A DNA stretch of 64,000 bases from Bradyrhizobium monzae (GTDB lineage: Bacteria; Pseudomonadota; Alphaproteobacteria; Rhizobiales; Xanthobacteraceae): the NCBI RefSeq assembly GCF_021458635.1, contig NZ_JAIRDQ010000002.1, positions 744,001-808,000 on the forward strand, in the 5' to 3' direction. Shown here one piece after another: positions 5,931 to 57,962 of this stretch. Made by a program: the position numbers and the translations under genes. The notes beneath the pieces are model-generated. The model was not told the DNA's origin. It searched no databases and worked only from the letters and a program-made list of their open reading frames with translations. Numbering within the stretch: the stretch's first letter is position 1; every line of letters starts with the position of its first letter.

Positions 5931-6019
5931 GGCAGCTGCAGGGCCGCGAGCGCTGGCTCCGGCCGCAGGAGATGTGATAATCCGGCCTGGTGCCGCGCCT
6001 GTCGCGGCATTCAGCCGGA

Positions 6020-9000
6020 ATGCAAATGACCACCCTTTCCAACGATGCTGCCGGGATCGACGAGCTCAAGCGGCAATTGCAGTCCGCCACAGCCGAGAAT
6101 GCGCGGCTGCGCGATCGGCAAAACGCCAGCGCCGAGATCTTGCGCACCATCGCCGCCTCTCCCTCCGATGCCCGGCCGGTCTTCGCGGCGATCGCATCCA
6201 GCTCAAAACGCCTGCTCGGCGGCTTCTCCGCCACTGTGCTCCAGTTCATCGGCGATGAGCTGCACCTCGTGGCGTTTACGCCGACCAGCCCGGAAGGCGA
6301 CGAAGGGCTGAAGGCGTCGTTCCCGCGACGGATCGAGGATTTTCCGACCTTCGCGCTGGTTCGCGGCGGCGAGACGATCCAGTTTCCCGACAGCGAAGCC
6401 AGTGACGTGCCGGAGCTGAACCGCGATCTCGCGCGGCTGCGTGGCTTCCGCAGCGTGCTGTTCATGCCGCTGATGAACTGCGGCACGGCGGTCGGCATGA
6501 TCAGCGTCACGCGCACCGAGACCGGTGCGTTTGCGCCCGACCTCGTGGAACTGCTCCAGACCTTTGCCGACCAGGCGGTGATCGCGATCGAGAATGCTCG
6601 GCTGTTCAACGAGACGCGCGAGGCGCTGGAACGCCAGACCGCCACGGCCGACATCTTGAGAGTGATGGCGGCGTCGCCCTCGGACGTGCAGCCGGTGTTC
6701 GACGCCATCGCCGCCAATGCCAACCGGCTGATCGGCGGCTTTTCCACCGCCGTGCTGCGCTACATCGACGGCGCGGCGCATCTTGCGGCCTTCACGCCGG
6801 GCGATCCGGAAGGCGATCGCGTGCTGCAGGCGTCGTTCCCGGTGCCGTTCGCCCAGTTCCCGGCCTACCAGCTCACCGCTCATGGTGAATCCGCTCAGCT
6901 GCCCGACACCGAGCTCGAGCCCGCGGCGCGCGACGTCGCCCGCGCGCGTGGCTTTCGCAGCATGCTGTTCACGCCGCTGATGAGCGAGGGAGAGGCCAAA
7001 GGCGTCATCATCGCCACGCGGCGGGCAACCGGCGCGTTCGCCGAGCATCATGTGCGGCTGTTGCAAACCTTCGCCGACCAGGCCGTGATCGCAGTCAAGA
7101 ATGTCAGCCTGTTCAATGCGACCAGGGAAGCGCTGGAACGGCAGACCGCGACAGCCGACATCCTCAAGGTGATCGCCGCCTCGCCCGCCGACGTTACGCC
7201 GGTGTTCCAGGCGATCTCCGACAGCGCCAAGGCGCTGGTCGGCGGCCATTCCTCCACCGTCACCCGCGTCATCGACGGCCTGCTGCATCTGGCGGCGTTC
7301 ACCACCGACAACGAGGCGGGCAATGCCGAGCTGCTCAGCACGTTCCCGGCGCCGCTGTCGTCGTCAGGCATTCACAGCCGGGTCGCGACCAGCGGCGCAT
7401 ACGCGTTCCGCAGCGACATGCAGAACGAGGCAGACCTGACCGAGGCGATGCGGGAGCTGGCGCGGACGCGCGGCTACCGCAGCATCCTCGTGATCCCGAT
7501 GCTGCGCGATGGCGTTGCGATCGGCACCATCGGCGTGACACGCCCCGAAGCCGGTCATTTCCCCGACAAGGCAATCAACCTGCTCAAGACCTTTGCCGAC
7601 CAGGCCGTGATCGCGATCGAGAACACGCGCCTGTTCAACGAGGTGCAGGACCGCACGCGCGAGCTTACCGAATCCCTGGAGCAACAAACCGCGACATCGG
7701 AGGTGCTCGCTGTCATCAGCCGATCGAATGGCGATCTCGCGCCGGTCTTCGAGGCGATGCTCGGCAAGGCAATGCAGCTCTGCGGTGCCAGTTTCGGCGT
7801 GCTCAATACCTACGATGGCACGCAGTTCCACACAGCCGCGACTTACGGCCTGCCCCCCGCCTACGATGAATTCCGGCGCAAGGCGCCCCTCAACTATGGT
7901 CCGGCCACCGCGCCCGCGCGCCTTTTGAGGGGCGAACCGTTCGTCGAAATGGTCGACCTTCTGGAGTCGGACGTCTATCGCAGCGGAGAGCCGAACCGCC
8001 GGGCCTTGGTCGATCTCGGCGGCGCGCGCTGTCTGCTCGCCGTGCCGTTGCTCCAGGACGAGCGCGTGGTCGGCAACGTCATGATCTTCAGACAGGAGAA
8101 CCGGCGCTTCTCGCGGAAGCAGATCACCTTGCTAAGCCAGTTCGCGGCGCAAGCCGTGATCGCCATCGAGAACGCGCGGCTGCTCAGCGAATTGCGTCAG
8201 CGCACCGAGAATTTGACCGAGTCGCTGCAACAGCAGACGGCGACTGCCGACGTGCTCAAGGTTATCAGCCGCTCGGCGTTCGACTTGCAGGCCGTGCTCG
8301 ATACGCTGGTCGAATCGGCGGCGCGACTATGCGAAGCCGATATGGCGGCGATTACCCGCAAGACCGGCAGCACCTATTTTCGGGCTGGCTCCCACGGCTT
8401 CCCGGCCAAGTTCGTCGAATATGTAAGAGATCTCCCGGTCCGGCCAGACAGGCGCACCATCACAGGCCGGACTTTGCTCGGCGACAAGGTCGTCCATGTC
8501 ACCGACGTGCTCGAAGACCCCGATTACTTCTTTGAAGGCCAGGAATTGAGCGGCAATCCGCGCAGCTTCCTCGGTGTGCCCTTGCTGCGCGAAGGCAGCA
8601 CGGTTGGCGCTATCGTTCTCGCGCGTCGCGCAATCCGGCCGTTCAGCGAAAAGCAGATCGAACTCGTTACCAGCTTCGCCGACCAAGCCGTCATCGCGAT
8701 CGAGAATGTGCGCCTCTTCGACGAGGTGCAGGCCCGCACCAGCGAGCTCGCCAGGTCGCTCGACGATCTTCGCGCGGCGCAGGACCGGCTGATCCAGACC
8801 GAGAAGCTGGCCTCGCTCGGCCAACTCACCGCCGGCATCGCGCACGAGATCAAGAACCCGCTCAACTTCGTCAACAATTTCGCCGCGCTCTCCGCCGAGC
8901 TGACGGACGAGCTGAACGAGGTGCTGGGGCCCGTTTCGCTCGGCGACGACATCCGCAACGACGTCGACGAGCTGACCGGGATGCTGAAGGACAATCTGCA

Positions 9001-9595
9001 GAAGGTCGTGCAACACGGCAAGCGCGCCGATTCCATCGTCAAGAACATGCTGCTGCATTCGCGCGAGGGCGGCGGCGAATACGGCTTGAGCGAGATCAAT
9101 GCACTGGTCGAGGAGAGCCTCAACCTCGCCTATCATGGCGCACGTGCCGAGAAGCCGCAGTTCGACGTGACGCTGAAGCGCGAGCTCGATCCGGCGGCGG
9201 GGTTCGCAAATTTGTTTCCGCAGGAGATCTCGCGGGTGCTGCTGAACCTGATCTCGAACGGGTTTTATGCGGTGGCAAAGCGCCAGGCGGAAAGCAGCGC
9301 CGGCACATTCGAGCCGGTGGTGACCGCCACGACCCGCGACCGCGGCGACACTATCGAGATCCGTATCCGCGACAACGGCACCGGCATTCCCGATGACGTG
9401 AAGGCAAAAATGTTCAATCCGTTCTTCACGACAAAACCGGCCGGCGAAGGCACTGGCCTCGGACTGTCGATGAGCCACGACATCGTGGTGAAGCAGCACG
9501 GCGGCACGATCGAGGTCGCGACGGAGCCGGGCCAGTTCACGGAGTTCACGATCCTGCTGCCGCGGAAGAGCGGCCTTGCGGACGACAAAGGATAA
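6020..9595 (+). CDS. hybrid-free sensor histidine kinase with five tandem GAF domains
   Basis: About 1191 residues. Five GAF repeats follow a short N-terminal coiled segment. Each ends in a near-identical block such as [14 protein letters not shown], near residues 182, 352, 527, 709 and 887, and each is followed by a Gln/Thr-rich helix such as [12 protein letters not shown]. The kinase core has H-box [17 protein letters not shown] (His942), N-box [13 protein letters not shown]1 DNGTGIPDD and G2 [11 protein letters not shown]. No membrane segment or receiver domain is visible, so it is probably a cytoplasmic sensor of small ligands or redox signals. ATG codons at 6020 and 6026 are both possible starts. 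No response regulator adjoins it, so its partner is unknown. Confidence 0.93.
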
Positions 9596-23834: not shown

Positions 23835-24599
23835 CTATCCGAGCAAACCCTTCAGGCCGGCATAGATGGAGCCCACGGCCGTCGCGGCGACCCCGACCAG
23901 CGGGCCGACGGTCTGCATCAGGTCCTGAATCAAACGGGCGCGGCGGCGGAGCTGCTCCTCCCCAACATGCTGCCCGAGCAGGCGCGCCATCCTGAAGGCG
24001 AAAGCGTTGGGTTTCCCGCCCTGGCCCAAAACGCGCGGCAAGACCTGGAAGATGACGACTCCCAATATGTTTCCGGAAACGAAGGCGAGCAGGATGCTCG
24101 CACCGTATTCGAACACTTCGCGCCACTCGATCCACACCGTCGGAAGGATCGGAACGCCATCGTGGATGCCGGTGACCGTCAGCATTGCCTGGATGCTGAC
24201 GCTGGCGAGCAGCAACGCCAGCACGAACGCCCCCAATGCCGAGACCCGATGCAGAGGATAGGCAGCGAACCCGAACAGCAGCGGGACAACGATCGAGGCG
24301 ATCCGGAGCGGGATTGGAGAGAGGTTGAAGGTGATGGTGACCAGGAAATGGGTGATCGTCAGCAGGACGGCCGGAATGAACACGTAGAGAAGGACATGCG
24401 TCCCGAAATAGCGCAGCGGATTCTTGTGCCGCTCGAGCCGGACATTGACCCGGTCGAGGTCGCGCCTGAGCTTGTCGAGATCGGCAACGATCTCTTCGAT
24501 CTCGATGAGCGTCGGCCGCACCACACGCAAGTCGCGCGAGCAGTGCTTGCACGCGATGGCTTCGTCCTTGATCGTCTCGGCGCAGAACGGACACTCCAT
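23835..24599 (-). CDS. zinc-ribbon membrane protein, last gene of the CHAT operon (254 aa)
   Basis: The N-terminus is a rubredoxin-like zinc ribbon, MECPFCAETIKDEAIACKHC, followed by a charged coiled coil (IEEIVADLDKLRRDLDRVN). Then come about five membrane segments, including HVLLYVFIPAVLLTITHFL, IVVPLLFGFAAYPL, ALGAFVLALLLASVSIQA, FEYGASILLAFVSGNILGV and, at the end, LVGVAATAVGSIYAGLKG. It would sit in the inner membrane with its ribbon and coiled coil in the cytoplasm. It begins two bases after the preceding zinc-ribbon gene, so the two products may be related or interact through the same N-terminal module. No function is known. Confidence 0.82.
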   Translation of the reverse strand: MECPFCAETIKDEAIACKHCSRDLRVVRPTLIEIEEIVADLDKLRRDLDRVNVRLERHKNPLRYFGTHVLLYVFIPAVLLTITHFLVTITFNLSPIPLRIASIVVPLLFGFAAYPLHRVSALGAFVLALLLASVSIQAMLTVTGIHDGVPILPTVWIEWREVFEYGASILLAFVSGNILGVVIFQVLPRVLGQGGKPNAFAFRMARLLGQHVGEEQLRRRARLIQDLMQTVGPLVGVAATAVGSIYAGLKGLLG

Positions 24600-24601
24600 C
24601 G

Positions 24602-24796
24602 TCAGCGCGACTTCCTGCGTTGCATGATGGCTTCGACCTCGTTTCTGGCCCGCGTCAGCTCATCGCGCAGCTGGTCCCGCTTGCGCAGGAGATCGTCGCG
24701 CTCCGCAATCAGCGTCGCGGGCACGGCGATGTCGCGCGCACAGGATGCGCACACCAGCGCGTGATCCGCACTCTCGGCCTGGCAGTAAGGACACAT
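24602..24796 (-). CDS. small zinc-ribbon/coiled-coil protein (64 aa)
   Basis: MCPYCQAESADHALVCASC forms a two-CxxC zinc ribbon, then LIAERDDLLRKRDQLRDEL is a heptad-like coiled coil with a basic end (MQRRKSR). Its N-terminal module mirrors that of the following membrane protein, as if it were a soluble half of it. The ATG at 24796 overlaps the stop of the upstream gene (TGATG); a GTG three bases earlier is possible. It is cytoplasmic and its function is unknown. Confidence 0.78.
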   Translation of the reverse strand: MCPYCQAESADHALVCASCARDIAVPATLIAERDDLLRKRDQLRDELTRARNEVEAIMQRRKSR

Positions 24797-25242
24797 CACC
24801 TGGGTGCGACCTTGAGGGTAAAAACGGCCGTGCCAGGCCGCCCATCGCTGTCCTTGACGTCGACCCGCACGGTGTAATCGCCCGGCGGCAGTTCGGCGTC
24901 CTGTATGTTGATGCCGTCGGCCTGGATAAACGGTTTGACTCGCGCCGTCAGATCGACGTTCGGCGTCCTCAGAAACATCACCTTGACCGAATCCGGATCA
25001 ATCTTGGCTCCGCCAAAGGAATCGAACTTCAAGACCAGGTGCAATGGCGAGCTGACCGAGTCACTCGGCGAAACAAATTCGACCTTCGGTCCGCGCAAGA
25101 TGCCGCGTCGATCGGCAGCGACCGCGCCCTTCGGGGGCGGCAACTTCGCTTCCTCTTCCGTGATCAATTGTGTTGCCGCTCTCGCAGCTCCCGAAAACAG
25201 GAGGCCTGCCGCGATCAGCGCCGGCAAGAAATTCCGCTTCAT
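24796..25242 (-). CDS. small exported beta-sandwich protein of the CHAT operon (148 aa)
   Basis: A Sec signal peptide (MKRNFLPALIAAGLLFSGA, cleavage near ARA-AT) is followed by a Pro-rich linker and an Ig/cadherin-like beta domain: VEFVSPSDSVSSPLHLVLKF, KIDPDSVKVMFLRTPN and PPGDYTVRVDVKDSDGRPG. The GDYTVRVDVKDSDG stretch is typical of calcium-stabilised or fibronectin-like folds. I prefer the ATG at 25242; AGGAGG lies about 12 bases upstream, and an earlier GTG sits on that site. It lies 27 bases after the CHAT gene and probably acts with it in the periplasm. Confidence 0.8.
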   Translation of the reverse strand: MKRNFLPALIAAGLLFSGAARAATQLITEEEAKLPPPKGAVAADRRGILRGPKVEFVSPSDSVSSPLHLVLKFDSFGGAKIDPDSVKVMFLRTPNVDLTARVKPFIQADGINIQDAELPPGDYTVRVDVKDSDGRPGTAVFTLKVAPR

Positions 25243-25269
25243 TTCAATTCCACCCCTCCTCACCTGCCG

Positions 25270-28200
25270 TCAACGCACGCCGCCATCGCCAATGATTGTG
25301 TACGGCGCCCAGAACAGCGGATGTGCATAGGCAAACTCGGTCTTGCCCTCGCCGTTCAGGTAACCGGGACCGTCGACCAGGGCCATCATCGCCTGCCGCA
25401 GCGCTTCGCTCCGCGACAGTTTTGGATCGTCCGCCTGCCGCTTGAACAGATCGGTTACCAGCTGCCGCGCGGATTGCGAATGCACCGACCAGTTCGTCAC
25501 CAGCAGCGCGCGCGTTCCGGCGTAGAAGAAGGCACGACCAAGTCCGGACGCGGCCTCCGCGCCGGCACCGGCGCCGGCACCGGTGTTGCAAGCCGACAGG
25601 ATGACCCAGTCGGCGTCGAGCTTGAGGCCGAGAATCTCCTCCATGGTCAGGAGGCCGTCGCCGCCTTCGCCCGTCACCGTTGGCGATGACAGTGCGAGCG
25701 CCGGCTGTGTCAAACCGTTGAGCTCGCCCGGAACAAGGCCGTGCGTGGCAAATGCGAGGATCTTGAAGCCGGAGAGGTTCATCGTCTTGACCGCGCTCTC
25801 GGTCGCGCTCTTGCCGAGGAACAGCACCTTTGAGGGATCGGCCTGCAGCGCCAGCGCGATCGATTTGAGTTCGTCGGCCGTATCGGGAAGGCGCGGCAGG
25901 AGACCGAGTTCGGCGCTGTCGACGCCGTCGAGCTTCGGGCTGTTGCGACGCTTCAGCGGCATGCCGCGCGTGACGTTGCCACCGACATCGGCCACCTGCA
26001 CCTTTTCGCCGGCGCCTTCCGCCTCGCTCTCCTGGTCCTTGTTGAAATAGGGATCGCCAAACGCCACGAGATCGCCGCGGCCGGGCTTGCCGGGCGGCAA
26101 CTGCCGAAGCGTGCGCAAGGCCGCGGCCGACGGCACGGTCGAGACGGCGTGGGTTCGCGCCAGCCATGGCACGTTCCGATAGCCGACGAAGAGCGGATCT
26201 TCGTCCGCGGCCACCTCGGCCGGCGCCGTCGGCAGCAGGGACAGCGGCAGCAGGCCAAGCGCGCCATTCGTGACCACGATCAAATTCCTGGCCGGCTTCC
26301 AGCCACTCTCGACCGGCTTCAGCAACAGCTCGTAGAGCTCGTAACCAAGCTTGAGATCAAACGGCGGAATGTCCGAGATCATCGCAGCCTGCGGCTCGAG
26401 CGCCTCGCGCAGCTTGCGGATCTTCGTCTCGACGTCGCCGATGCTGGCCTTGACCGCCGCGAATGCCACCGGCCCCGACTTCGGCACGGCCCAGACGAAG
26501 CTGCCGTACTGACCGAAGTAGAATGACAGCATGGCCTCGTTGTCGGCCAGCGTCGCACGGATCTCTGCGACGCTCGGCGGCTTGGGCGAGACGAGATCGG
26601 CGTAGGTCGGAAATCGCCGGTTGATCTCCTGCCGTGCCTTGTCGCGCTCGCTACGCATGGACGCGATCGATGCCTGGATCTGCTGAACGCCCTTTTCGTC
26701 GCGATCCGCAGAGGGAATCGCCAGCACATTGTTCAGTGTGCCGAGCTGGGCGTTGACCTGCTTGGTGAGGTCCTGCTGCTTGCGCACGAGCTCGGCCAGC
26801 GCGGGATCCTTCGCCGCCGCACGCGCGCTGGAGGCGGCCAGCGCCTGCTGCACGGAGCGGCCGCGGATCGCGTCGGCCAGACCGAACGTCTCCTCGCCGA
26901 TGCCGCTTCCGGTGCCTTCGGCCCGCGCGAGCAGCAGAAGGTAGCTCTCGACGATGTTCTGGAGCCGCTGGCTGCGCGCGGCCACGACGGTCGTGTTCTC
27001 GTCGTCGGCGTTCTCGTTTGCGTTCGCCATCATGATCGGAATGGCGGCCTTGAACTCCCGGATCGCGTCGGCATCGCGCCGCGCGCGCATCAATCCGATC
27101 GCCAGCGTGCCGCGCGCCGACGCCGCATCGAAATGGTTCTCGCCGACCCGCCCGACCTGCTTCTTGACCAGCTGCTCCGCGGCGGCGATGCCGGCGTCGA
27201 GCTGCCCGGAATTGTAGAGCGCGAGAATGCGCGCCGGATTGAGCTCGATGACCTGGCGGCGCTGCGGATCCCAATTGGCGACCGCCTTGTCGATCCGCGC
27301 AAACATGTCGTTGGCCTCGGCATTCTTGCGCTGCAGGTTCAGGATGCCGGCGACCTGCGAAAGCAGCTGCACGGTCGATTGCGAGTCCTCGGGCACGCCA
27401 ACCGTCTTGTTGATCTCGAGCGCGACGCGGCCGAGCTGCTCGGCTTCGTCGTAACGGCCCTGGTCGACCAGAATGCCGGCCAATCCCATCACATAGCGCG
27501 GCGTCACCGGATTGTACTTGCCGGTGTCCTTCAGACGCGACAGCAGCGCCCGGCGCGCGTCGACCTCGGCTTCGGCGAGCCTGCCCTGCCGCGCCTTCAT
27601 GCGCGCCTGATTCAGGATGCTGCTGTCGACCGCCTGCAACAGAAGGGTTTCGGCCGGCGGATTGTCGCCCTCCAGAACCCCCTTGTTGCCAGCGCGCTTG
27701 CGCACCTCCGCGGTGCGATAAGCAGCCTCGGCCTCGGCGAACTGCCCGCGCGCCTCGAAGATCTGGCCGCGCGAAATCTCGATCTCGCCCTCCCAGTTCT
27801 GGCCGAGCCGGGCATAGGAGGCGCGCCAGCCCGGAAGTCCGCTGGTGCGTGCCTCCTGGATCGCGGTCAGACTCCGGCGCAGATAAGCTTCGGCCTGTGG
27901 GATGTCGCCCATCTGGATCAGGATGGCGGCAATCGAGCGATTGGCGCCAAACTGAAATCCCTTGGCAGTCGGCGTGCCGGCAAAGTCGCGCAGCATCTTC
28001 TGGAGGATTTCGAACGCGCGCTTGGGATCGCCCGCAGTCGCATATTGGAACGACTGGAGCTGCATCATCCGCGCCATCATGTTCGGGCTGGCGGCGCCGC
28101 GCCCGGTCTCCACGGCCTTGTTGGCATCGGCAGTGGCGTCGGCGAGGCGGCCGAGCTGGGCGCGCGCGTTGGCGCGGTCAAAGTAGAATTGCGCGAGATC

Positions 28201-28677
28201 CACGCGCGCTTCCTTCCCCGTCGGCACGGCGTCGGCGTCGGATTTCAGCTCAGCGATCAGCTTCTCGTCAGGCTTCTCGCCGTCGAGAATCGCGGTGATG
28301 TCGGAGATATTGCGCGGCGGCGCGACGAAGTCCTTTGGCAGGGCGGTGCCGGGATCGAGCTTGGGCGCCGCTTCCTTCGGCAACTCGACGGCGACATTGG
28401 CGCGGCCGTTGGCGGCGTTGAGCGCCGCCATCACGCAGGCCTTGACCTTGGGAGAGGCCGTGGCGCGGCACGCTTCCAGATTGGCGCCGCCGCCCGCACG
28501 CATGCAGGCTTGCACGATCGGCTTGCCCACGGTCATCCGGCAGTTCTCGATCGCCGCCTCCTTGGTCAGCGCGGCGGCCGAGCCGGTCGATCCGAGCAGG
28601 ATGGCAAGGGCCAGCAATTTTCGCAGGGGCGTGAAATTGCGACGGGCGTCAAGCGGCATCGCGGAATTGATGCTCAT
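25270..28677 (-). CDS. exported TPR-CHAT (caspase-like) protein
   Basis: 1135 residues. A signal peptide (LLALAILLGSTGSAAA, cleavage near residue 36) is followed by a Cys-containing segment (CRMTVGKPIVQACMRAGGG) and then a long run of TPR-like helices, about 140-620. The C-terminal third is a CHAT domain: a PARNLIVVTNGALGLLPLSL block, the catalytic His979 in LAFATHGLV, and catalytic Cys1030 in LSACNTGAG, 51 residues apart as in active CHAT proteases. The end TRALLVTNWSVHSQSA and AYAHPLFWAPYTIIGDGG fit the family. It is the first gene of a four-gene operon. CHAT relatives include separase-like and Craspase proteases; this one is exported, so its target should be periplasmic or secreted. Substrates are unknown. 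Confidence 0.88.
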   Translation of the reverse strand: MSINSAMPLDARRNFTPLRKLLALAILLGSTGSAAALTKEAAIENCRMTVGKPIVQACMRAGGGANLEACRATASPKVKACVMAALNAANGRANVAVELPKEAAPKLDPGTALPKDFVAPPRNISDITAILDGEKPDEKLIAELKSDADAVPTGKEARVDLAQFYFDRANARAQLGRLADATADANKAVETGRGAASPNMMARMMQLQSFQYATAGDPKRAFEILQKMLRDFAGTPTAKGFQFGANRSIAAILIQMGDIPQAEAYLRRSLTAIQEARTSGLPGWRASYARLGQNWEGEIEISRGQIFEARGQFAEAEAAYRTAEVRKRAGNKGVLEGDNPPAETLLLQAVDSSILNQARMKARQGRLAEAEVDARRALLSRLKDTGKYNPVTPRYVMGLAGILVDQGRYDEAEQLGRVALEINKTVGVPEDSQSTVQLLSQVAGILNLQRKNAEANDMFARIDKAVANWDPQRRQVIELNPARILALYNSGQLDAGIAAAEQLVKKQVGRVGENHFDAASARGTLAIGLMRARRDADAIREFKAAIPIMMANANENADDENTTVVAARSQRLQNIVESYLLLLARAEGTGSGIGEETFGLADAIRGRSVQQALAASSARAAAKDPALAELVRKQQDLTKQVNAQLGTLNNVLAIPSADRDEKGVQQIQASIASMRSERDKARQEINRRFPTYADLVSPKPPSVAEIRATLADNEAMLSFYFGQYGSFVWAVPKSGPVAFAAVKASIGDVETKIRKLREALEPQAAMISDIPPFDLKLGYELYELLLKPVESGWKPARNLIVVTNGALGLLPLSLLPTAPAEVAADEDPLFVGYRNVPWLARTHAVSTVPSAAALRTLRQLPPGKPGRGDLVAFGDPYFNKDQESEAEGAGEKVQVADVGGNVTRGMPLKRRNSPKLDGVDSAELGLLPRLPDTADELKSIALALQADPSKVLFLGKSATESAVKTMNLSGFKILAFATHGLVPGELNGLTQPALALSSPTVTGEGGDGLLTMEEILGLKLDADWVILSACNTGAGAGAGAEAASGLGRAFFYAGTRALLVTNWSVHSQSARQLVTDLFKRQADDPKLSRSEALRQAMMALVDGPGYLNGEGKTEFAYAHPLFWAPYTIIGDGGVR

Positions 28678-29080: not shown

Positions 29081-30057
29081 TCAGATCTTCGGGATCTTCG
29101 CCCGCTCCACCACGCCGGTCCATTTGGCGATCTCCGTCTCGATGAGCGCCTTCATCTCTCCCGGTGAGCTGCCGCGGACCTCACCGCCGACGGCCGTCTC
29201 CAGGCGCTGCTTGATGTCGGGGTCCCCCAGCACGTCGCGCGTCGCGGCATTGAGCGTCGCGATGATGGCGGGCGGCGTTCCCTTGGGGGCCAGCAGGCCG
29301 GCCCAGGGCGCACGTCGTATCCCCCAATGCCGGCCTCCTGAACCGTCGGAACGTCTGGCAGCAACGCAGTGCGCGCCGGCGAGGTCACCGCGAGACCGCG
29401 GATCGCGCCGCTCTGGATTTGCGGCGCGAGCAGGACGGGCGTGCCGACGATAACCGGAACCTCGCCACCGAGGAGCGCGGTAACGGATTGCGCATCGCCG
29501 CGATAGGGCACATGCACGATCTCGATACCTGCGGTTGCGTTCAGCAACTCTCCTGCCAGGTGATGCGTGCTGCCGAAACCGACCGACCCGAAGCTGAGCG
29601 CGCCGGGTTTCTCCTTAGCGATAGTGATGAGATCGCCCAGCGACTTCGCGGGGAAGTCGTTGCGCACGGCAATGACGAGCGCGTAGTAGACCAGCGTCGA
29701 GATCATGTCGAAACTCTCGGCCGGCTTATAGGCGAGGCTCTTGTAGGTCGCTGCGGAGATCGCATGGGCGCCGGTGACGAGCCCGAGCGTGTAGCCGTCG
29801 GGCGCAGCCTTGGCGATGGCATCCGCCGCGATGTTGCCGCCGGCGCCAGGCTTGGCTTCGACGATGATCGGTTGCCCGAGCTTCTTCGACAGTCCATCGG
29901 CGATGATGCGCGACAGCGTGTCGGCGGCGCCGCCCGCAGCGAAACCGTGCAGGAGGCGGATCGGGCGCGACGGATAATTGTCCGCCGACGCGGGGCCGGT
30001 CGCGAGACAACCACCAAGCAGAAAAATGGCCGGAGCAAGCCGCTTCATCCAGAGCAT
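29081..30057 (-). pseudogene. Bug/TctC-family solute receptor, frameshifted
   Basis: A periplasmic binding protein of the tripartite tricarboxylate/Bug family: signal peptide MKRLAPAIFLLGGCLATG, then YPSRPIRLLHGFAAGGAADT, PGAGGNIAADAIAKAAPDGY and FGSTHHLAGELL. The frame is intact to about GGYDVR (near 29310), then reads Arg/Pro-rich nonsense. One base lost from a C run (GTGCGCCCTGGGCC) explains it: shifting the frame restores WAGLLAPKGTPPAIIATLN and continues to VVERAKIPKI with a stop at 29081-29083. The start at 30057 has AAAGGGAGAA upstream. It may be a true pseudogene or a sequence error. In context it would supply the substrate receptor of the adjacent catabolic genes. Confidence 0.85.
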
Positions 30058-34432: not shown

Positions 34433-35194
34433 CTAGCCCTTCGAGACGACGGCGCGGCCGTAGGCCGGCTGCGACTGAACCGGCGGATTCGCGGTCTGGG
34501 CCGCGAGCTCACCGATCAGGCGATCGGCGTCGGCGGCCATGCCGTCGGGCGCCTGGATCACCAGCCGCTCAAGCGCCCAGCGATAGGACGAGACACGCTG
34601 CTCGAGCGACAGCTGCACCCACTGGATGATCAGCGAGTTCTCCTGCATGCGTGCGACGGCGTCGGCCTTCTCCCGCGGCGACAGCGCCGAGACGCGCGCC
34701 ATGCTGGCCTCGCGCTTCTTGTCGAGGTCGATGACGCGGATGGCTGAGGCAAAGAACGGTTCAAAACGCGTGATGTCGTTGCGCACGTCCTCGATCAACT
34801 GCGCGTAGCGCGAGGAATGCGAGCGATGCGGCTCGTCGATCAGCGTGCGGCCATACATGGTGCGATCGAACACGATCTTCTGCCGCCACGGCGACGGCAA
34901 CGCCTTGTAGTCGCCGAACACGCTCTTCCAGGCCGGGCGCGACAGTGGCGGCTCGATCATGGGATAGGCAAGGTCGCGGAGCTGACGTTCTTCGTCGGTG
35001 AGCTGGAATTGAGAGGCATTCAGGCCGAGGCTTCCGGTGACCTCGGCGCCGAGCCAGCGATGCATGTCGTCGCTGCGCATGTCGGCGCGGGTACGGCCGA
35101 AATCGCCGCCACTACAGGCGGCAAGCGTCGCGCCCACAGCCGCGAGCAGGATGGCCGTTACGATTGTGCGGATCTGGCGGATGGAGTCCGGCAT
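34433..35194 (-). CDS. putative lipoprotein, hypothetical (253 aa)
   Basis: The N-terminus has a hydrophobic segment ending in a lipobox: TIVTAILLAAVGATLAAC, with Cys27 as the lipidation site. The mature chain is helical and charged (LTDEERQLRDLAYPMIEPPL, RYAQLIEDVRNDITRFEPFF, EASMARVSALSPREKADAVA). No known catalytic motif was seen. It is probably an outer-membrane lipoprotein facing the periplasm. It follows the small gene at 35210-35398 by 15 bases on the same strand. Confidence 0.78.
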   Translation of the reverse strand: MPDSIRQIRTIVTAILLAAVGATLAACSGGDFGRTRADMRSDDMHRWLGAEVTGSLGLNASQFQLTDEERQLRDLAYPMIEPPLSRPAWKSVFGDYKALPSPWRQKIVFDRTMYGRTLIDEPHRSHSSRYAQLIEDVRNDITRFEPFFASAIRVIDLDKKREASMARVSALSPREKADAVARMQENSLIIQWVQLSLEQRVSSYRWALERLVIQAPDGMAADADRLIGELAAQTANPPVQSQPAYGRAVVSKG

Positions 35195-35209
35195 TGCAAA
35201 AGCCGGACC

Positions 35210-35398
35210 TTAGCGGCGACGACGACGGCGCCCCGGCGCTGTGCCCGCTTCCGGCCCGCGATCGCCGCTGGTTTCGTCCGCATCGCGCTCGATCCGGATG
35301 ACGGGAAGGATCAGAATCGTCCCCGTGTCCGCGCGCGGTGTGACGTCCCCCGACGAGCCCACCCGGCGACCGGCCGGAAATTCGATGATCGTCCCCAT
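35210..35398 (-). CDS. small hypothetical protein (62 aa)
   Basis: Begins MGTIIEFPAGRRVGSSGD, has a short beta-like segment TGTILILPVIRIERD and a strongly basic end (GRRRRRR). The MGTIIEFPAGR start is a pattern I recall from Bradyrhizobium small proteins. It lies upstream of the lipoprotein gene on the same strand, likely one transcript. Function unknown. Confidence 0.65.
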   Translation of the reverse strand: MGTIIEFPAGRRVGSSGDVTPRADTGTILILPVIRIERDADETSGDRGPEAGTAPGRRRRRR

Positions 35399-35582
35399 GT
35401 CAGCTCTCTCAATTGCCGCGCGACAAAATGCGCCCCTGCAACATGGGGGTCATTAGGATCAGTTTATGGTTAATGGGATGTAAACAAAGGTTTCGGACCG
35501 TAACCGCACGGGCCAGCCGGAGCGTCCCGCTGCGACACGAAATCGGCTGAAATGAGCGGGTTTGCTTCACACCTCGTTTTCC

Positions 35583-35597
35583 TTAACGAGCCTTTAA
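35583..35597 (+). promoter_or_regulatory. CtrA-like box TTAA-N7-TTAA
   Basis: TTAA at 35583-35586 and TTAA at 35594-35597 are separated by exactly seven bases, the full CtrA consensus of alphaproteobacteria. It is 53 bases upstream of the preferred start (35651) of the DUF2336 gene, a good place for promoter control. Confidence 0.5.
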
Positions 35598-35650
35598 AGG
35601 AACCGCTGATAGGCTGGGGCAACAGTCTTTTCCAAGTTGCGTACGCCTCC

Positions 35651-36628
35651 ATGACCAAGTCGCTGTTTCCCGGATTTGACGGGCTGATGACACTCTCCCG
35701 TCGCGAGGGCGTCGATGTGCGTCCGACGCTGCTGCGGGTGCTGACTGACCTCTATGTCCAGGCGCCCACCCACAGCGAGGACGAGCAGCGGCAATTCGTC
35801 GAGCTCGCCACGCGGCTGATCGACCAGGTCGACGATGCAACGCGCGCCGCCGTCAAGGCGCGGCTCGCGATCTATCCGCAGACGCCCATTCCAGTGCTGC
35901 AGAAGCTCGGGCTGGTCGCAGCGCAGGAAGGCCGCAGGGTGCCGCTCGCGCGCGAAATCCCGCGGCCTGCGTCCGCCCCCTCGCCCGCCCGCGCGCCGAC
36001 CGACGCCGAGCAGCGCATGGCCGCCAACATGGCGATGCAGCCGAAGGAAGCGGCCGAGATCCACGACATGTTCTTCGGCGCCGATGCGAGCCAGCGCGCG
36101 CTGATCCTGCATAATCTGGCGCAGACGCCGTTGAAGGCCGCACCGCGGATTCCGACCGTGCACAGCAAGCGCGCGATCCAGATCCTGGAGATGGCGGCGA
36201 TCGCGGGCGATATCGAGAGTTTCATCTACGAGCTCGGTGATACCCTGATCCTGCCCTCGCGCGTCGCAGCAGAGATCGTCGACGATGCCGGCGGCGAAGC
36301 GCTTGCGGTGGCCGCCCGCGCACTCGACATGCCGAGCCCGAACTTCCAGCGCATCCTCTTGTTCTTCAAGCCGGAGATCGGCAACTCGGTGGATTCGGTC
36401 TACCGGCTGTCGCGCCTCTACGACCGCCTCAGCGACCGCGCCGCGCTGGTGATGCTCGCCGCCTGGCGCGGCTCGACACTCGCCGTCACGCGCGCAAAAT
36501 ATCAGCCATCGCTGCATGACAGCGACCGCCAGCGCGCGCGCGGCGCGACCGGCCAGACGCGGCCAAACGTGCAGCCCGGCTCGAGCCCGGCCGTGCGCAC
36601 GGGCAGCGGCGGATCGACGGAGCGCTGA
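35651..36628 (+). CDS. DUF2336-domain protein
   Basis: 325 residues from the ATG at 35651 (MTKSLFPGFDGLMTLSRREG). DUF2336 is a helical repeat domain; here it covers most of the chain (VLTDLYVQAPTHSEDEQRQF, VELATRLIDQVDDATRAAVK, LGDTLILPSRVAAEIVDDAG). A Pro/Ala-rich linker near 120-140 and a Gly/Ser/Arg-rich tail frame it. The longer start at 35552 would put the CtrA-like box inside the gene. DUF2336 proteins are widespread in Rhizobiales and of unknown mechanism. It is monocistronic, ending before a REP-like palindrome. Confidence 0.83.
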   Translation: MTKSLFPGFDGLMTLSRREGVDVRPTLLRVLTDLYVQAPTHSEDEQRQFVELATRLIDQVDDATRAAVKARLAIYPQTPIPVLQKLGLVAAQEGRRVPLAREIPRPASAPSPARAPTDAEQRMAANMAMQPKEAAEIHDMFFGADASQRALILHNLAQTPLKAAPRIPTVHSKRAIQILEMAAIAGDIESFIYELGDTLILPSRVAAEIVDDAGGEALAVAARALDMPSPNFQRILLFFKPEIGNSVDSVYRLSRLYDRLSDRAALVMLAAWRGSTLAVTRAKYQPSLHDSDRQRARGATGQTRPNVQPGSSPAVRTGSGGSTER

Positions 36629-36683
36629 GGCACTCTCGTTCAAACGCTGACGCTGAGCGTGAGGCGCGCGACGCGCCCGAGCT

Positions 36684-36770
36684 CGTCATTGCGAGGAGCT
36701 CTTGCGACGAAGCAATCCAGAGTCCCTCCGCGGACAGAGCCTGGATTGCTTCGCTGCGCTCGCAACGACG
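36684..36770. repeat. REP-like palindrome, copy 2 (GAGGAGCTC variant)
   Basis: Begins CGTCATTGCGAGGAGCTCTT and ends GCTGCGCTCGCAACGACG. The left arm carries the extra GAGCTCTTGCGACG segment shared with copy 3, so the arms are only partly complementary. It lies between the convergent DUF2336 and DUF1491 genes. Confidence 0.93.
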
Positions 36771-36780
36771 GTGGCCCTGG

Positions 36781-37125
36781 TTACGTCTTCGCCAGTTCCA
36801 GAAAATGCCGGCCAGCGCGATCCTCGGTCTCGACGATCCAGGCATCCGGATCGAAGCGAAGCTCCTTGGTCAGGCGCTCTTCCACCGTAGGCTCCGGCAT
36901 CGGCTGCGCCGCCGCTGGCACAAAGAAGCGGTCGACCGGCCGGCCGTCGTCATAGACGGTCTGCGGCGCCGGCACGTAAAGCATCGCGTTGCCGTCGAGC
37001 AGCGACACCTTGACGAACACCGCCCCCGCCTCCTCGGCACCGCGATGACGCACGGCGCCGAACACACCCTCGGTCTGGCATCGGCGCAAGTAAGCTGAGA
37101 CCCAGATATTTGATTTCAAACGCAT
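36781..37125 (-). CDS. DUF1491-family protein
   Basis: 114 residues from the ATG at 37125 (MRLKSNIWVSAYLRRCQTEG). The family blocks are GAVFVKVSLLDGNAMLYVPA, DRFFVPAAA and FDPDAWIVETEDRAGRHFLE. It is a small soluble protein found mainly in alphaproteobacteria, with unknown function. It is convergent with the DUF2336 gene and follows the peptidoglycan-binding protein gene by 63 bases on the same strand. Confidence 0.88.
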   Translation of the reverse strand: MRLKSNIWVSAYLRRCQTEGVFGAVRHRGAEEAGAVFVKVSLLDGNAMLYVPAPQTVYDDGRPVDRFFVPAAAQPMPEPTVEERLTKELRFDPDAWIVETEDRAGRHFLELAKT

Positions 37126-37188
37126 GAGCACACGATAGGTCAGCGCCGCAAGCAGCGCCAGCCTTGAGGTCTCGCAAAGCGCCGACGC

Positions 37189-37908
37189 TTATTCGACGGG
37201 ATGGCCGATCGCGGCGGCGAGCTCGCGCAGCAGGCGGTCCGACACCTGGCCGGTGACGGGCATCTTGTGCTGGCGCTCGAACGTCTGGATCGCCGACTGG
37301 GTCTCGCCGCTCATCGAGCCAGTGATCTTCAAATTCCCGTAGCCGTATTCGGACAGCGCGCGCTGCACGCCGGAAAGGCGACGCGCCGCGGGACTTTGCT
37401 GCGCCGGGATCGGCGCCGGCGGCCGCGCGACGGCCACCGCGGACGGTGCCGGCGTGGGTGTCGTGGCCTTGATGACCAGATTGGTCATGGGATCACCCGC
37501 GCGCGGCGTCGAGGCCGTCGTCTCGGCGGGCTTCTCCGGCGCTTTCTCTGCCGGTTTCGGCTCGACGCGAAACTCGGTTGCTTTTGGTTCGAGCGGCGAG
37601 GTATCGGCGCCGACGGGACGCGGGCGCGGCATGAGGTTCGACAGCGACGCGGACGACGGCGCAGGAAGGTTGATCACGGTGCCGAACATCGGCGCCGGAT
37701 GCCGGCCGGTCTGCAGGAACAGTGCGTTCGCAACGATGGCGCTGATGGCGGCGGCGGCGACGAGGCCGGCCAGCGTGTCCTTGGGGCTGTGCAGGAGCAC
37801 GCGCATCACGAGATTGCGCTCGGTCTCGACATCCACGACCGCGGCCTTGACACCCTTGGCGCCACGGCGGCGCGGAACAGCTTCGTCCTTTGCAGACTTT
37901 CTAGGCAC
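37189..37908 (-). CDS. membrane-anchored peptidoglycan-binding-domain protein
   Basis: 239 residues. A basic cytoplasmic start (MPRKSAKDEAVPRRRGAKG), one membrane segment (TLAGLVAAAAISAIVANALF), a long Pro/Ala/Glu linker and a C-terminal peptidoglycan-binding domain (about 175-235): SGVQRALSEYGYGNLKITG, GETQSAIQTFERQHKMPVTG and VSDRLLRELAAAIG. It would tether the membrane to the wall. Its ATG overlaps the end of the PAS kinase gene by 8 bases, so the kinase and this wall-binding protein are translationally coupled, which hints at an envelope-linked signalling unit. Confidence 0.87.
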   Translation of the reverse strand: MPRKSAKDEAVPRRRGAKGVKAAVVDVETERNLVMRVLLHSPKDTLAGLVAAAAISAIVANALFLQTGRHPAPMFGTVINLPAPSSASLSNLMPRPRPVGADTSPLEPKATEFRVEPKPAEKAPEKPAETTASTPRAGDPMTNLVIKATTPTPAPSAVAVARPPAPIPAQQSPAARRLSGVQRALSEYGYGNLKITGSMSGETQSAIQTFERQHKMPVTGQVSDRLLRELAAAIGHPVE

Positions 37909-39763
37909 TTTTCTTCACCAGAGCAGGTTGGTCCTGAGGTCGGTCTTGAAGTTCCTGGCGCAGCACCGGCGTCAGCGTCGCGATCTTGCTCTCCGCGGGC
38001 TTTGCTTGCGGCGGCGTGTAGACCAGCGGCAGCTTGACCGTGATAGCGGTGCCCTCGCCGAGCTTGCTTTGTACCGTCAATTCGCCGAGATGCAACGCCA
38101 CAAGGCTCTTCACGATCGACAATCCGAGACCAGTGCCTTCGTGACGACGCTGATAGGTCTTGCCGCACTGGAAGAACGGCGAGCCGATGTGCTTGAGGTC
38201 GTCGGGCGCGATGCCGACCCCGGTGTCGCTGATGCGTAGCGTCAGCTGCGAGGCGGAGGCCGACGCAGTTACGGTGACCTGACCGCCACGCTCGGTGAAC
38301 TTGACGGCGTTGGCGACGAGGTTGAGCACGATCTGCTTGAAGGCCCTGGGATCGCCGGTCATCACAGGCAGATCCTGGGGCGCATCGGTGATGAGATCGA
38401 TGCCGTTCTCGCGCGCCTTGAGCGCCAGCAGGTTGCAGCAATGCGTCAGCGAGGCGCGTGGCGCGAACGGCTCCGACGCAATCTCGAAATTGCCCGACTC
38501 CATCTTCGACATGTCGAGGATGCCGTTGACGACCGACAGCAGATGCTGGCCGGACGCGTTGATCAGCTCGGCATATTCCTTGCGCTGGCTGGCTGCCAGC
38601 ATCAGGGTCTGCTCCTGCGCGATCATCTCCGAGAAGCCGATGATGGCGTTGAGCGGTGTGCGCAGCTCATGGCTCATGGTAGCGAGGAAGCGCGTCTTGG
38701 CGGCGTCAGCGGCTTCCGCCGCGCTGCGGGCCTGATCGAGCGCCTCCTCGGACAGCTTGCGATCGGTGACGTCGCGCATCACGCCGACGACTTCGGCCTC
38801 ACGCGTGAGATCGCGGCCCAGATCCTGATCGAGCGGCCGGCAGCGCATCTCGACCCAGATGAAATCGACCTGACCGCGCTCGGAACCGGTGGGCTCGCGC
38901 CGCAGCCGGAATTCGACGCTGCGCACGTCGCCGCGCGCGGCATCGGAAAGCGCCGTGAGATAGGCCGGGCGATCCGCGACATGGACGCGGTCGAACAGGC
39001 CATGGCCGAGCAATTGCGCCACCGGCATGCCGAGCATGGCTTCCGCGGCTTGCGAGATGAATTGCACCGCGCCGTTGCGCTGATGCCGCGAGATGACGTC
39101 GCTCATGTTGCGCGCGAGCAGGCGATAGCGCTCCTCCTCGCGCGACAGCAGGGTAACGCTGGTGCGTGCGAGCGACTCGGCGCCGAAGGCGAGGCCCGCG
39201 GCATAGAGCGTTGCGGAAGCGACGCCGAACGCCATCATCACACCGCGTTGCGCGGCGCCGACATGTTCGGACGGCAACCAGCCGAACTGGCTCACGAGGA
39301 TCAATATCGCGGCGCAGGACAGGGCCAGCAACGAGGCAAAGGCCGCGACGCGGCGCGACGCCGACAGCGCGGCTTCGAGGGGAACCACGACCAGCCAGAT
39401 CGCTGCGAATGATTCGATGCCGCCGGTCGTGCTCGCGATCGCCATGATCAGGCCGGCGAGCGCCAGCGACGATAGCACATGGGCACCTTCATAGCGTCCG
39501 GTGCGCGACAGGAACCAGGACAGCATGATCGGTGCGATCAGCCAGGCGAAAGCGGCGACCTCGATCGCGCTCGGCGCGCCACGCAGGACGAGATAAACCG
39601 GAAATGCGGCAAAAGCGGCCAGGCTTCCGAGAAGCCGCGGCGCCATGAAAGCTCGGTGGCGTGCACGCATCAGCGCATCGTAACGCGCGGAGGGATGCAG
39701 CAGTGCATCGAGACAATCGCGGATGATACTCAAAACTGTCACGGGTCTCGCGCTTCGGCTCAA
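37901..39763 (-). CDS. membrane PAS-domain sensor histidine kinase (PleC/DivJ-like layout)
   Basis: About 620 residues from a TTG at 39763 (a GTG at 39742 is also possible). About six membrane segments (FMAPRLLGSLAAFAAFPVYL, VAAFAWLIAPIMLSWFLS, VLSSLALAGLIMAIAST, FASLLALSCAAILILVS, GVMMAFGVASATLYAAGL) lead to a PAS domain (about 210-330, LLARNMSDVISRHQRNGAV, MRDVTDRK). The kinase core has FLATMSHELRTPLN with His365, N-box LVANAVKF, G1 DTGVGIAPDD and G2 GTGLGLSIV. The HELRTPLNAIIGFSEM block and multi-span sensor recall the cell-cycle kinases PleC and DivJ, but I do not assign a name. No response regulator adjoins it. Confidence 0.88.
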   Translation of the reverse strand: MSRSARPVTVLSIIRDCLDALLHPSARYDALMRARHRAFMAPRLLGSLAAFAAFPVYLVLRGAPSAIEVAAFAWLIAPIMLSWFLSRTGRYEGAHVLSSLALAGLIMAIASTTGGIESFAAIWLVVVPLEAALSASRRVAAFASLLALSCAAILILVSQFGWLPSEHVGAAQRGVMMAFGVASATLYAAGLAFGAESLARTSVTLLSREEERYRLLARNMSDVISRHQRNGAVQFISQAAEAMLGMPVAQLLGHGLFDRVHVADRPAYLTALSDAARGDVRSVEFRLRREPTGSERGQVDFIWVEMRCRPLDQDLGRDLTREAEVVGVMRDVTDRKLSEEALDQARSAAEAADAAKTRFLATMSHELRTPLNAIIGFSEMIAQEQTLMLAASQRKEYAELINASGQHLLSVVNGILDMSKMESGNFEIASEPFAPRASLTHCCNLLALKARENGIDLITDAPQDLPVMTGDPRAFKQIVLNLVANAVKFTERGGQVTVTASASASQLTLRISDTGVGIAPDDLKHIGSPFFQCGKTYQRRHEGTGLGLSIVKSLVALHLGELTVQSKLGEGTAITVKLPLVYTPPQAKPAESKIATLTPVLRQELQDRPQDQPALVKKSA

Positions 39764-39823
39764 TCGTCTTTGAAGACGTGCCGGAACGCCTCCTTGTCGT
39801 TAAGCCAACGTGTCAGAGCGACC

Positions 39824-53366: not shown

Positions 53367-53447
53367 CCAAAAACAACCGTTTGCAGGGAGGGCCGGCCGT
53401 GGCAATTTCGCCTGCGAATAACGAGACGTTTGGGAGCCCTTGGCCGT

Positions 53448-55322: not shown

Positions 55323-55783
55323 CCGACGCCAACAAACCCGTTCTCACCGGCGGCTGCCAATGCGGCGCGGTGCGCTTTGCGATTTCGGCCACACCGAACC
55401 GGGTTTCGATCTGCCACTGCCGGATGTGCCAGAAGGCCAGCGGCGCGCCGTTCGCCTCGTTCGCCGACGTCAACCGCACGGATTTCGCCTGGACCAAGGG
55501 CGAGCCGTCGTTCTTCCGCTCGTCCACGATCGCCGACCGCGGCTATTGCGCCGCCTGCGGCACGCCACTCAGTTTTGGGCGCATCGATGGCGAGCGGATC
55601 GAGATCATGACCGGCGCGTTCGACCGGCCCGACCGCCTGGTACCGACGCGGCAATACGGAACGGAATCCCGCCTCGGCTGGGTGGTCGGCATCTCCAACC
55701 TGCCGAGCCAGACCACGCAGCAGAACTACGGCCCGGAGAAGATGGCAACCATCGTCAGCCACCAGCATCCGGATCATGATTGA
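55319..55783 (+). CDS. GFA-family protein (glutathione-dependent formaldehyde-activating-like)
   Basis: 154 residues with the family Cys pattern: [39 protein letters not shown] and [16 protein letters not shown], which together bind zinc, ending in GVVGISN-like text ([13 protein letters not shown]). Gfa binds glutathione and S-hydroxymethylglutathione; many homologues are uncharacterised. It begins in the stop of mutA (ATGA) and ends just before mutB, so it is embedded in the mutase operon, an unusual place. A role in protecting the operon's enzymes or coping with formaldehyde is only speculation. Confidence 0.92.
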
Positions 55784-55805
55784 ACGCCCTGATATGGTTG
55801 AAGCC

Positions 55806-57962
<2,157 letters not shown>

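Follow-up and report, generated by a model that had tools for sequence, protein, structure and literature searches.

A conserved gene module of Bradyrhizobium monzae joins an IG-ZRTM core with exchangeable clan-CD proteases predicted to be exported

The window analysed here (the whole stretch of 64,000 nucleotides from Bradyrhizobium monzae, positions 744,001–808,000 of contig NZ_JAIRDQ010000002.1) contains a module of four genes, which encode a TPR-CHAT cysteine protease (CHAT), an Ig-like protein (IG), a short zinc-ribbon protein (ZR) and a second, longer one that has predicted transmembrane helices (ZRTM). The module is real and conserved and, as far as literature coverage reaches, undescribed. 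Judged from the sequences, IG and ZRTM are its constant core, and the clan-CD protease next to them, either TPR-CHAT or a C14 caspase, is exchangeable. Regulated proteolysis in the cell envelope is the role that we tentatively propose.

Protease exchange on a constant core

Gene content was compared across 87 non-identical loci with an intact IG-ZRTM pair, after removal of six exact duplicates. Twenty further loci (L035–L054) were left out, mostly as repeats of named genomes (not checked singly), and some loci fall outside the 87 because they have no intact pair, e.g. L147, in which ZRTM is split, and L150 and L245, in which it was not found. Within 6 kb of IG-ZRTM there is a CHAT gene in 78 of the 87 loci, a C14 gene in 8 and neither in one. 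The order CHAT-IG-(ZR)-ZRTM on one strand is found in 77 loci: CHAT-IG-ZR-ZRTM in 71, CHAT-IG-ZRTM in 4, and CHAT-CHAT-IG-ZR-ZRTM, with two CHAT genes, in 2. Four loci have the order IG-ZRTM-C14-C14, again on one strand, and the remaining six each have a unique order. One of these six, genome G737 (L195), has C14-C14-IG-ZR-ZRTM, with two C14 genes at the place of CHAT. Pfam confirmed Peptidase_C14 in all seven C14 proteins checked (L047, L195, two of L194, L147, L150 and L069; E 6e-17 to 2e-38), of which those of L147 and L150 come from outside the 87 loci; the check did not extend to the C14 proteins of L263–L266.

On a tree of ZRTM built from 39 of the 87 rows, with long branches flagged, protease type changes at least 4 times, and branches with good support require 3 of these changes. 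The approximately unbiased (AU) test rejected the placing of all C14 loci in one clade (p-AU 5e-11). The protease type thus changes while IG and ZRTM stay, which identifies the pair as the constant core and the clan-CD protease as the exchangeable part. In Bradyrhizobium sp. JYMT SZCCT0428 (L047, the same as L151), a TPR-C14 protein carries the 4-Cys N-terminal domain of the CHAT type at 54% identity, so part of the exported protease was carried across the exchange.

The genes of the module

The four genes lie on the minus strand from 28677 to 23835, in the 5' to 3' order CHAT, IG, ZR, ZRTM (Table 1). CHAT and IG are separated by 27 bases, IG and ZR overlap by 1 base (TGATG), and 2 bases lie between ZR and ZRTM. 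The ratio of non-synonymous to synonymous substitution (dN/dS, Nei-Gojobori) was 0.11–0.37 for the four genes against three relatives, as under purifying selection; against a fourth relative it was 0.10 for two genes and saturated, hence not computable, for the other two. The four open reading frames (ORFs) are judged to be real genes, not chance ORFs. The coordinates and spacing of the four tightly packed, one-strand genes in the original prediction, made from the sequence of the window, proved exact to the base, and both CHAT catalytic residues that it named are in place.

Table 1. Genes of the module in the window, and loci in which the module lies among clp genes
Feature	Position or loci	Strand	Description
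CHAT	25270..28677	-	predicted exported TPR-CHAT cysteine protease; 1135 aa; signal-like start, 4-Cys domain, TPR array, CHAT 777-1131, His979/Cys1030
IG	24796..25242	-	predicted exported Ig-like beta-sandwich, conserved N-terminal LITxEEAxLP...RGITRGP segment; 148 aa from ATG
ZR	24602..24796	-	zinc ribbon (C2, C5, C16, C19) and probable coiled coil; signal-like start not found; 64 aa
ZRTM	23835..24599	-	N-terminal zinc ribbon (C3, C6, C17, C20), long helix, four predicted transmembrane helices with conserved third loop, C-terminal helix; 254 aa
clp-cluster loci	L120, L123, L125, L127-L130, L132, L133, L135, L137, L142-L146		module among tig, clpP, clpX, lon

The CHAT protein belongs to the CHAT peptidases (Pfam PF12770, E = 3.4e-50, 171.6 bits against a cut-off of 24), with TPRs in the middle of the chain. 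The catalytic histidine is in an ATHG motif and the cysteine in LSACN, and both residues are invariant in 14 aligned homologues. None of the 100 CHAT domain matches (some genomes repeated) and none of the 12 C14 matches (two genomes repeated, and L059 outside the module) has lost these dyad motifs. The N-terminal 4-Cys domain covers approximately residues 37–96 (C46, C58, C70 and C81). A sequence comparison with the PDB gave 14 distinct relatives, each of them a TPR region of kinesin light chain. As a control, the window's genome has two other CHAT genes above the cut-off (L055 and L056), with no IG, ZR or ZRTM adjoining. In four loci (8807–9130 in L052, and L134, L136 and L141) there is a small separate ORF between CHAT and IG with two tandem 4-Cys domains; the ORF itself was inspected in L134 only.

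IG has no Pfam match above the curated cut-off. Its predicted structure is a beta-sandwich (mean predicted local distance difference test score, pLDDT, 82.9; predicted template modelling score, pTM, 0.73), for which only 2 PDB fold matches reach E ≤ 0.001. The best matches are mixed beta-sandwich domains (the CelAly B1 domain, CopC, PKD and Ig-like domains) with query template modelling scores (TM-scores) of about 0.3–0.4, and 'Ig-like' is therefore a general statement about the fold. Four remote IG homologues (L070–L073, ca. 24% identity) were not counted as module members. Two of them (L070 and L071) are near a caspase-like ORF with no Pfam match. L073 has a TPR-caspase gene nearby, in which an Ig-like (Glucodextran_B) domain was matched as well, and L072 has neither kind of gene nearby in the bases covered. 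Partnership with exported caspase-like proteins may thus extend more widely through the IG family.

The zinc-ribbon cysteines are invariant in 15 ZR and 15 ZRTM sequences, and the ribbon pattern of ZRTM is present in all 87 loci; Pfam scores of both ribbons fall below the curated cut-offs. Four further residues of ZRTM, in loop 3 and at the start of helix 4 (D147, P153, W159 and E161), are invariant in the 15 sequences aligned, a set without the later-found Burkholderiales loci, two of which (L263 and L265) do not have the tryptophan. ZR is present in 75 of the 87 loci. It was not found in the other 12, which include all of the Burkholderiales loci, and so seems to have arisen later, as a paralogue of the ribbon in ZRTM.

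Distribution and co-occurrence

In a sample of 398 Pseudomonadota genomes, full-length ZRTM was found in 12 and IG in 12, and these are the same 12. Each has a protease within 6 kb, CHAT in 9 and C14 in 3 (G142, G685 and G737). Eleven further genomes match ZRTM only over 21–81 positions, at the N-terminal ribbon. Among 300 genomes of the order of G685, a long ZRTM match was found in 9 (G685 included), all 9 with IG; 3 have CHAT, 5 have C14, and in one (L259, a contig of 6,952 bases) no protease is visible. This order is inferred to be Burkholderiales because the IG and ZRTM of L259 are the same as those of a named Burkholderiales locus (L152). Both samples, which share G685, score only the best few candidates per genome, and they give a fairer estimate than the named loci. 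Those are the best 80 of 84 relatives from an IG pattern search, where the CHAT rate is not an unbiased estimate: CHAT is within 6 kb of IG in 76, C14 in 3 and neither in 1. ZRTM was found in 78 of the 80; of the two without it, L144 stops at a contig edge.

The named loci are in Bradyrhizobium, Afipia, other Nitrobacteraceae or Xanthobacteraceae, and one Burkholderiales metagenome-assembled genome. In a sample of the class, 8 of 385 genomes match IG, four of these matches being the remote homologues L070–L073 outside the module. ZRTM matched in none of 40 other genomes of the order. Within the genus the distribution is patchy, with ZRTM matches in 21 of 60 genomes including the window's own, one of them (G052) a remnant. 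Other remnants in same-genus genomes are L058, in which IG is open and ZR is interrupted by a stop codon, and L054, which has only fragments of ZRTM.

Two plasmid copies were found among 72,556 plasmid records. On Variovorax paradoxus plasmid CP063167, CHAT is divergent from IG-ZRTM. The conjugative B. japonicum plasmid pS11L-1 (L245) has a divergent CHAT gene and, just upstream of IG, a 27-residue CHAT-like remnant; ZRTM was not found there. A record titled Frankia sp. RB7 (L076, JAUEPE010000001.1) has a module with 89% IG identity in a Bradyrhizobium flanking context, and is probably mislabelled or contaminated.

Predicted export and membrane topology

Signal-like starts were called by a rule of our own, not SignalP, which asks for a positive start, an uncharged hydrophobic core and a small-x-small site, with any in-frame start allowed. 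Such starts were found in 75 of 78 CHAT, 12 of 14 C14 and 79 of 87 IG proteins, and the window's own CHAT and IG both begin in this way. Among cytoplasmic controls (ClpP, ClpX, trigger factor and Lon) the figure was 1 of 54. None of 75 ZR proteins has a signal-like start, and 1 of 87 ZRTM proteins does (first 58 residues). In 15 ZRTM sequences, the share of lysine and arginine is 16% in the N-terminal part, 1% in loop 1, 15% in loop 2, 7% in loop 3 and 17% in the C-terminal part, a pattern consistent with two cytoplasmic termini and with loops 1 and 3 on the periplasmic side. The prediction is thus a periplasmic protease and IG, with the ribbons of ZR and ZRTM in the cytoplasm.

The original prediction had placed the CHAT protease and the second gene product outside the cytoplasm, and had described shared N-terminal ribbons on one soluble and one membrane-embedded protein; the signal-like starts in the window and in the homologues, and the four predicted transmembrane helices of ZRTM, agree with both. 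Its reading of the locus as an undescribed envelope protease module gains support from this predicted export and from conservation, since the neighbourhood is kept beyond close strains, in Burkholderiales and in other alphaproteobacterial families. The claim of a four-member module stands as to conservation and changes as to membership: the core is IG and ZRTM, while ZR is missing from the 12 loci named above and CHAT can be replaced by a C14 caspase.

Genomic location

In 16 loci, from Afipia, other Nitrobacteraceae and Xanthobacteraceae, the module is housed in the tig-clpP-clpX-lon cluster with all genes on one strand (Table 1). The sequence takes in both clpP and clpX at 13 of the 16, and there the module separates them; in four (L135, L137, L143 and L144) the contig or stretch ends early. 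The identities of tig, clpP, clpX and lon were checked by Pfam with one example per gene. Descent of the clp location as one inherited clade was rejected by the AU test (p 0.0015), with 4 changes on the tree and short-flank rows scored as 'not clp'. There were either several exits from an ancestral clp site or several arrivals at it.

When flanks were grouped by single linkage, the largest cluster took in 42 of 75 upstream flanks and 40 of 76 downstream flanks, and most Bradyrhizobium loci are in one common context. Flank sharing of this extent makes descent within Bradyrhizobium look mostly vertical. Fast mobility with a different context everywhere was considered and dropped, as the flanks fall into few clusters. 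The window locus is outside these clusters. One locus within them (L074), however, has an upstream flank that can be aligned to window positions 34435–39796, and the 5' side of the window looks like a locally rearranged form of the common Bradyrhizobium context.

Possible role of the module

We read the genes as a conserved module that regulates proteolysis in the envelope, for stress or quality control, and give this reading a little less than an even chance. For the contacts, signal direction, substrate and physiological role we infer the following arrangement. The constant core would be a periplasmic IG and a polytopic inner-membrane ZRTM with a cytoplasmic ribbon, usually joined by ZR in the wider family of the window. 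IG would act as an adaptor that docks the exported protease, perhaps via its 4-Cys domain, to the conserved periplasmic loop 3 of ZRTM, and ZR would pair with ZRTM through their common ribbon and helix. The ribbon and coiled coil of ZRTM, together with ZR, might read or report a cytoplasmic state, and a change across the membrane would free or activate the protease for a limited cut in an envelope protein. By analogy, this would be control of a periplasmic cysteine protease from the inner membrane in the manner of LapD-LapG. The most likely use would be envelope stress or protein quality control, which the location in the clp cluster favours.

Several observations weigh against this reading. 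The clp location is limited to one bacterial group, and the genome from which the window comes has clpP next to clpX, with ca. 470 bases and no module between them. The patchy distribution within the genus is unlike that of a housekeeping quality-control function and, together with protease exchange, favours a role in conflict. The signal-start rule is our own and lenient, and 2 of 14 C14, 3 of 78 CHAT and 8 of 87 IG proteins do not pass it. The ZRTM model, in which the ribbon and a long helix are followed by four further long helices and a last one at the C-terminus, is weak, with pLDDT 68.6 and pTM 0.56, and a fold comparison with the PDB gave nothing at E ≤ 0.001; there may be a fifth membrane helix at the C-terminus.

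A bolder version is rather unlikely. IG-ZRTM would be the core of a new class of transmembrane protease control, an 'envelope apoptosome-like' platform that recruited CHAT and caspase proteases several times and that, in Afipia and related bacteria, became part of the trigger factor-ClpXP-Lon quality-control cluster and so tied proteostasis in the cytoplasm to clan-CD proteolysis in the periplasm.

Defence or programmed death is unlikely, yet of all the alternatives it has the most behind it. The envelope protease would be an effector released on attack by phage or rivals, with IG or ZRTM as the sensor, and effector exchange on a constant core and presence in only 21 of 60 same-genus genomes would reflect conflict. 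Remnants or truncated copies (L053, L054 and L058) and the two copies in the plasmid collection agree with such a history. The flanks common to 42 of 75 and 40 of 76 loci, with mostly vertical descent, and the position inside a core gene cluster in 16 loci do not. Neither do the PADLOC-DB 2.0.0 models, in which the best E values were 0.01–0.03 for CHAT and ZR and there was no match for IG or ZRTM; of 10 neighbours scanned against PADLOC only a LuxR regulator matched, over its helix-turn-helix stretch. Identity with a known defence system was set aside, as no PADLOC score carried weight. A scan of viral contigs with ribbon-derived patterns listed 41 matches, all in ZRTM residues 1–48, and is evidence neither for nor against phage carriage.

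It is improbable that ZRTM or IG is itself the substrate, with CHAT or C14 cleavage turning ZRTM into an active membrane effector in the way of a gasdermin. Bacterial gasdermins are activated by caspase-like and CHAT proteases, and are paired with them in small operons, where the protease for a membrane partner of one kind can come from different families, as it comes from two catalytic families here. The last part of ZRTM is a hydrophobic helix, and basic residues lie close to the C-terminus. However, no gasdermin match was found by Pfam for IG, ZR or ZRTM; ZRTM is modelled as helical after the ribbon, and IG as a small beta-sandwich. Unlike that of the gasdermin pairs, the protease of the module is predicted to be exported, which places it and most of ZRTM on opposite sides of the membrane. 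It is also improbable that the protease domains act mainly as scaffold or binding parts, in a structural complex where no regulated cleavage takes place: most of the protein consists of TPR and 4-Cys domains, but both dyad motifs are intact in every CHAT and C14 match, and exchange swaps one catalytic clan-CD domain for another. That CHAT is an ordinary exported TPR-CHAT gene with unrelated neighbours can hardly be right. The same genome does have such a partnerless TPR-CHAT gene (L055), with a signal-like start by eye, but this account is contradicted by the co-occurrence of IG and ZRTM in the same 12 of 398 genomes, by the one-strand order in 77 of 87 loci, by a CHAT or C14 domain within 6 kb of IG-ZRTM in 86 of 87, and by members in both Alphaproteobacteria and Burkholderiales.

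Relation to known systems

The protease of the window resembles the TPR-CHAT component of Craspase (Csx29, type III-E CRISPR), as far as the available parts of the accounts describe it, in joining a TPR array to a caspase-like CHAT domain (PMC10028731, PMC9729208), here with intact dyad motifs. Craspase is bound to the RNA-guided Cas7-11 effector, whereas the module has Ig-like and zinc-ribbon partners; Craspase is cytoplasmic, whereas 75 of 78 CHAT homologues of the module have a signal-like start by our rule. No CRISPR-like array repeats were found in window positions 14000–38000, and no Cas gene among the neighbours tested, with no genome-wide search made for Cas7-11. On the signal-like start and these two negatives, a Craspase or CRISPR association was rejected.

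Orthocaspases (C14) and pseudo-orthocaspases number in the thousands in Alphaproteobacteria, according to the part available of PMC6426788. The alternative protease of the module is like them a Peptidase_C14 with an intact His-Cys dyad. Unlike the module, they are given no partner set in that part, and the main text of the paper does not contain the words 'neighborhood', 'transmembrane' or 'Bradyrhizobium'.

In LapD-LapG, as set out in the available part of PMC4359373, a transmembrane receptor governs a periplasmic protease according to a cytoplasmic signal. The predicted topology of the module fits this scheme, as an analogy of mechanism only. No LapG (C93) or LapD domains were found in the module by Pfam, which gave only CHAT and TPR and weak zinc ribbons. 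LapG and LapD belong to other families; the module has clan-CD proteases and a zinc-ribbon membrane protein instead, and is not a member. Conflict systems with sensors diversified by diversity-generating retroelements share CHAT or caspase-like peptidase effector domains with the module, and some of their parts are predicted outside the cytoplasm, in the part available of PMC10907252. The same source describes STAND or MoxR NTPases and adaptor domains, none of which was found by Pfam among the four module proteins.

No description of this gene set was found among the literature matches listed, in a coverage mostly outside subscription journals and preprints, and there was no match linking CHAT domain-containing proteins with Bradyrhizobium. 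Most discussion of bacterial caspase- and CHAT-type proteases treats them as effectors in the cytoplasm, and the module is a handle on the role of exported bacterial caspase homologues. Constant partners beside an exchanged clan-CD protease suggest that the partners, and not the catalytic domain, define the system.

Other features of the window

Among the neighbours of the module scanned with Pfam, the nearest are genes for LuxR regulators, a TctC receptor, an aspartoacylase-like protein and a glyoxalase. The upstream TctC-type receptor gene (29152–30057) looks frameshifted: its Pfam match ends at profile position 200 of 274, and by eye there is a TctC-like C-terminus in another frame. Further away are two adjacent methylmalonyl-CoA mutase genes, probably for two subunits (53430–57962), and a gene for a histidine kinase with five GAF-domain stretches (5990–9595).

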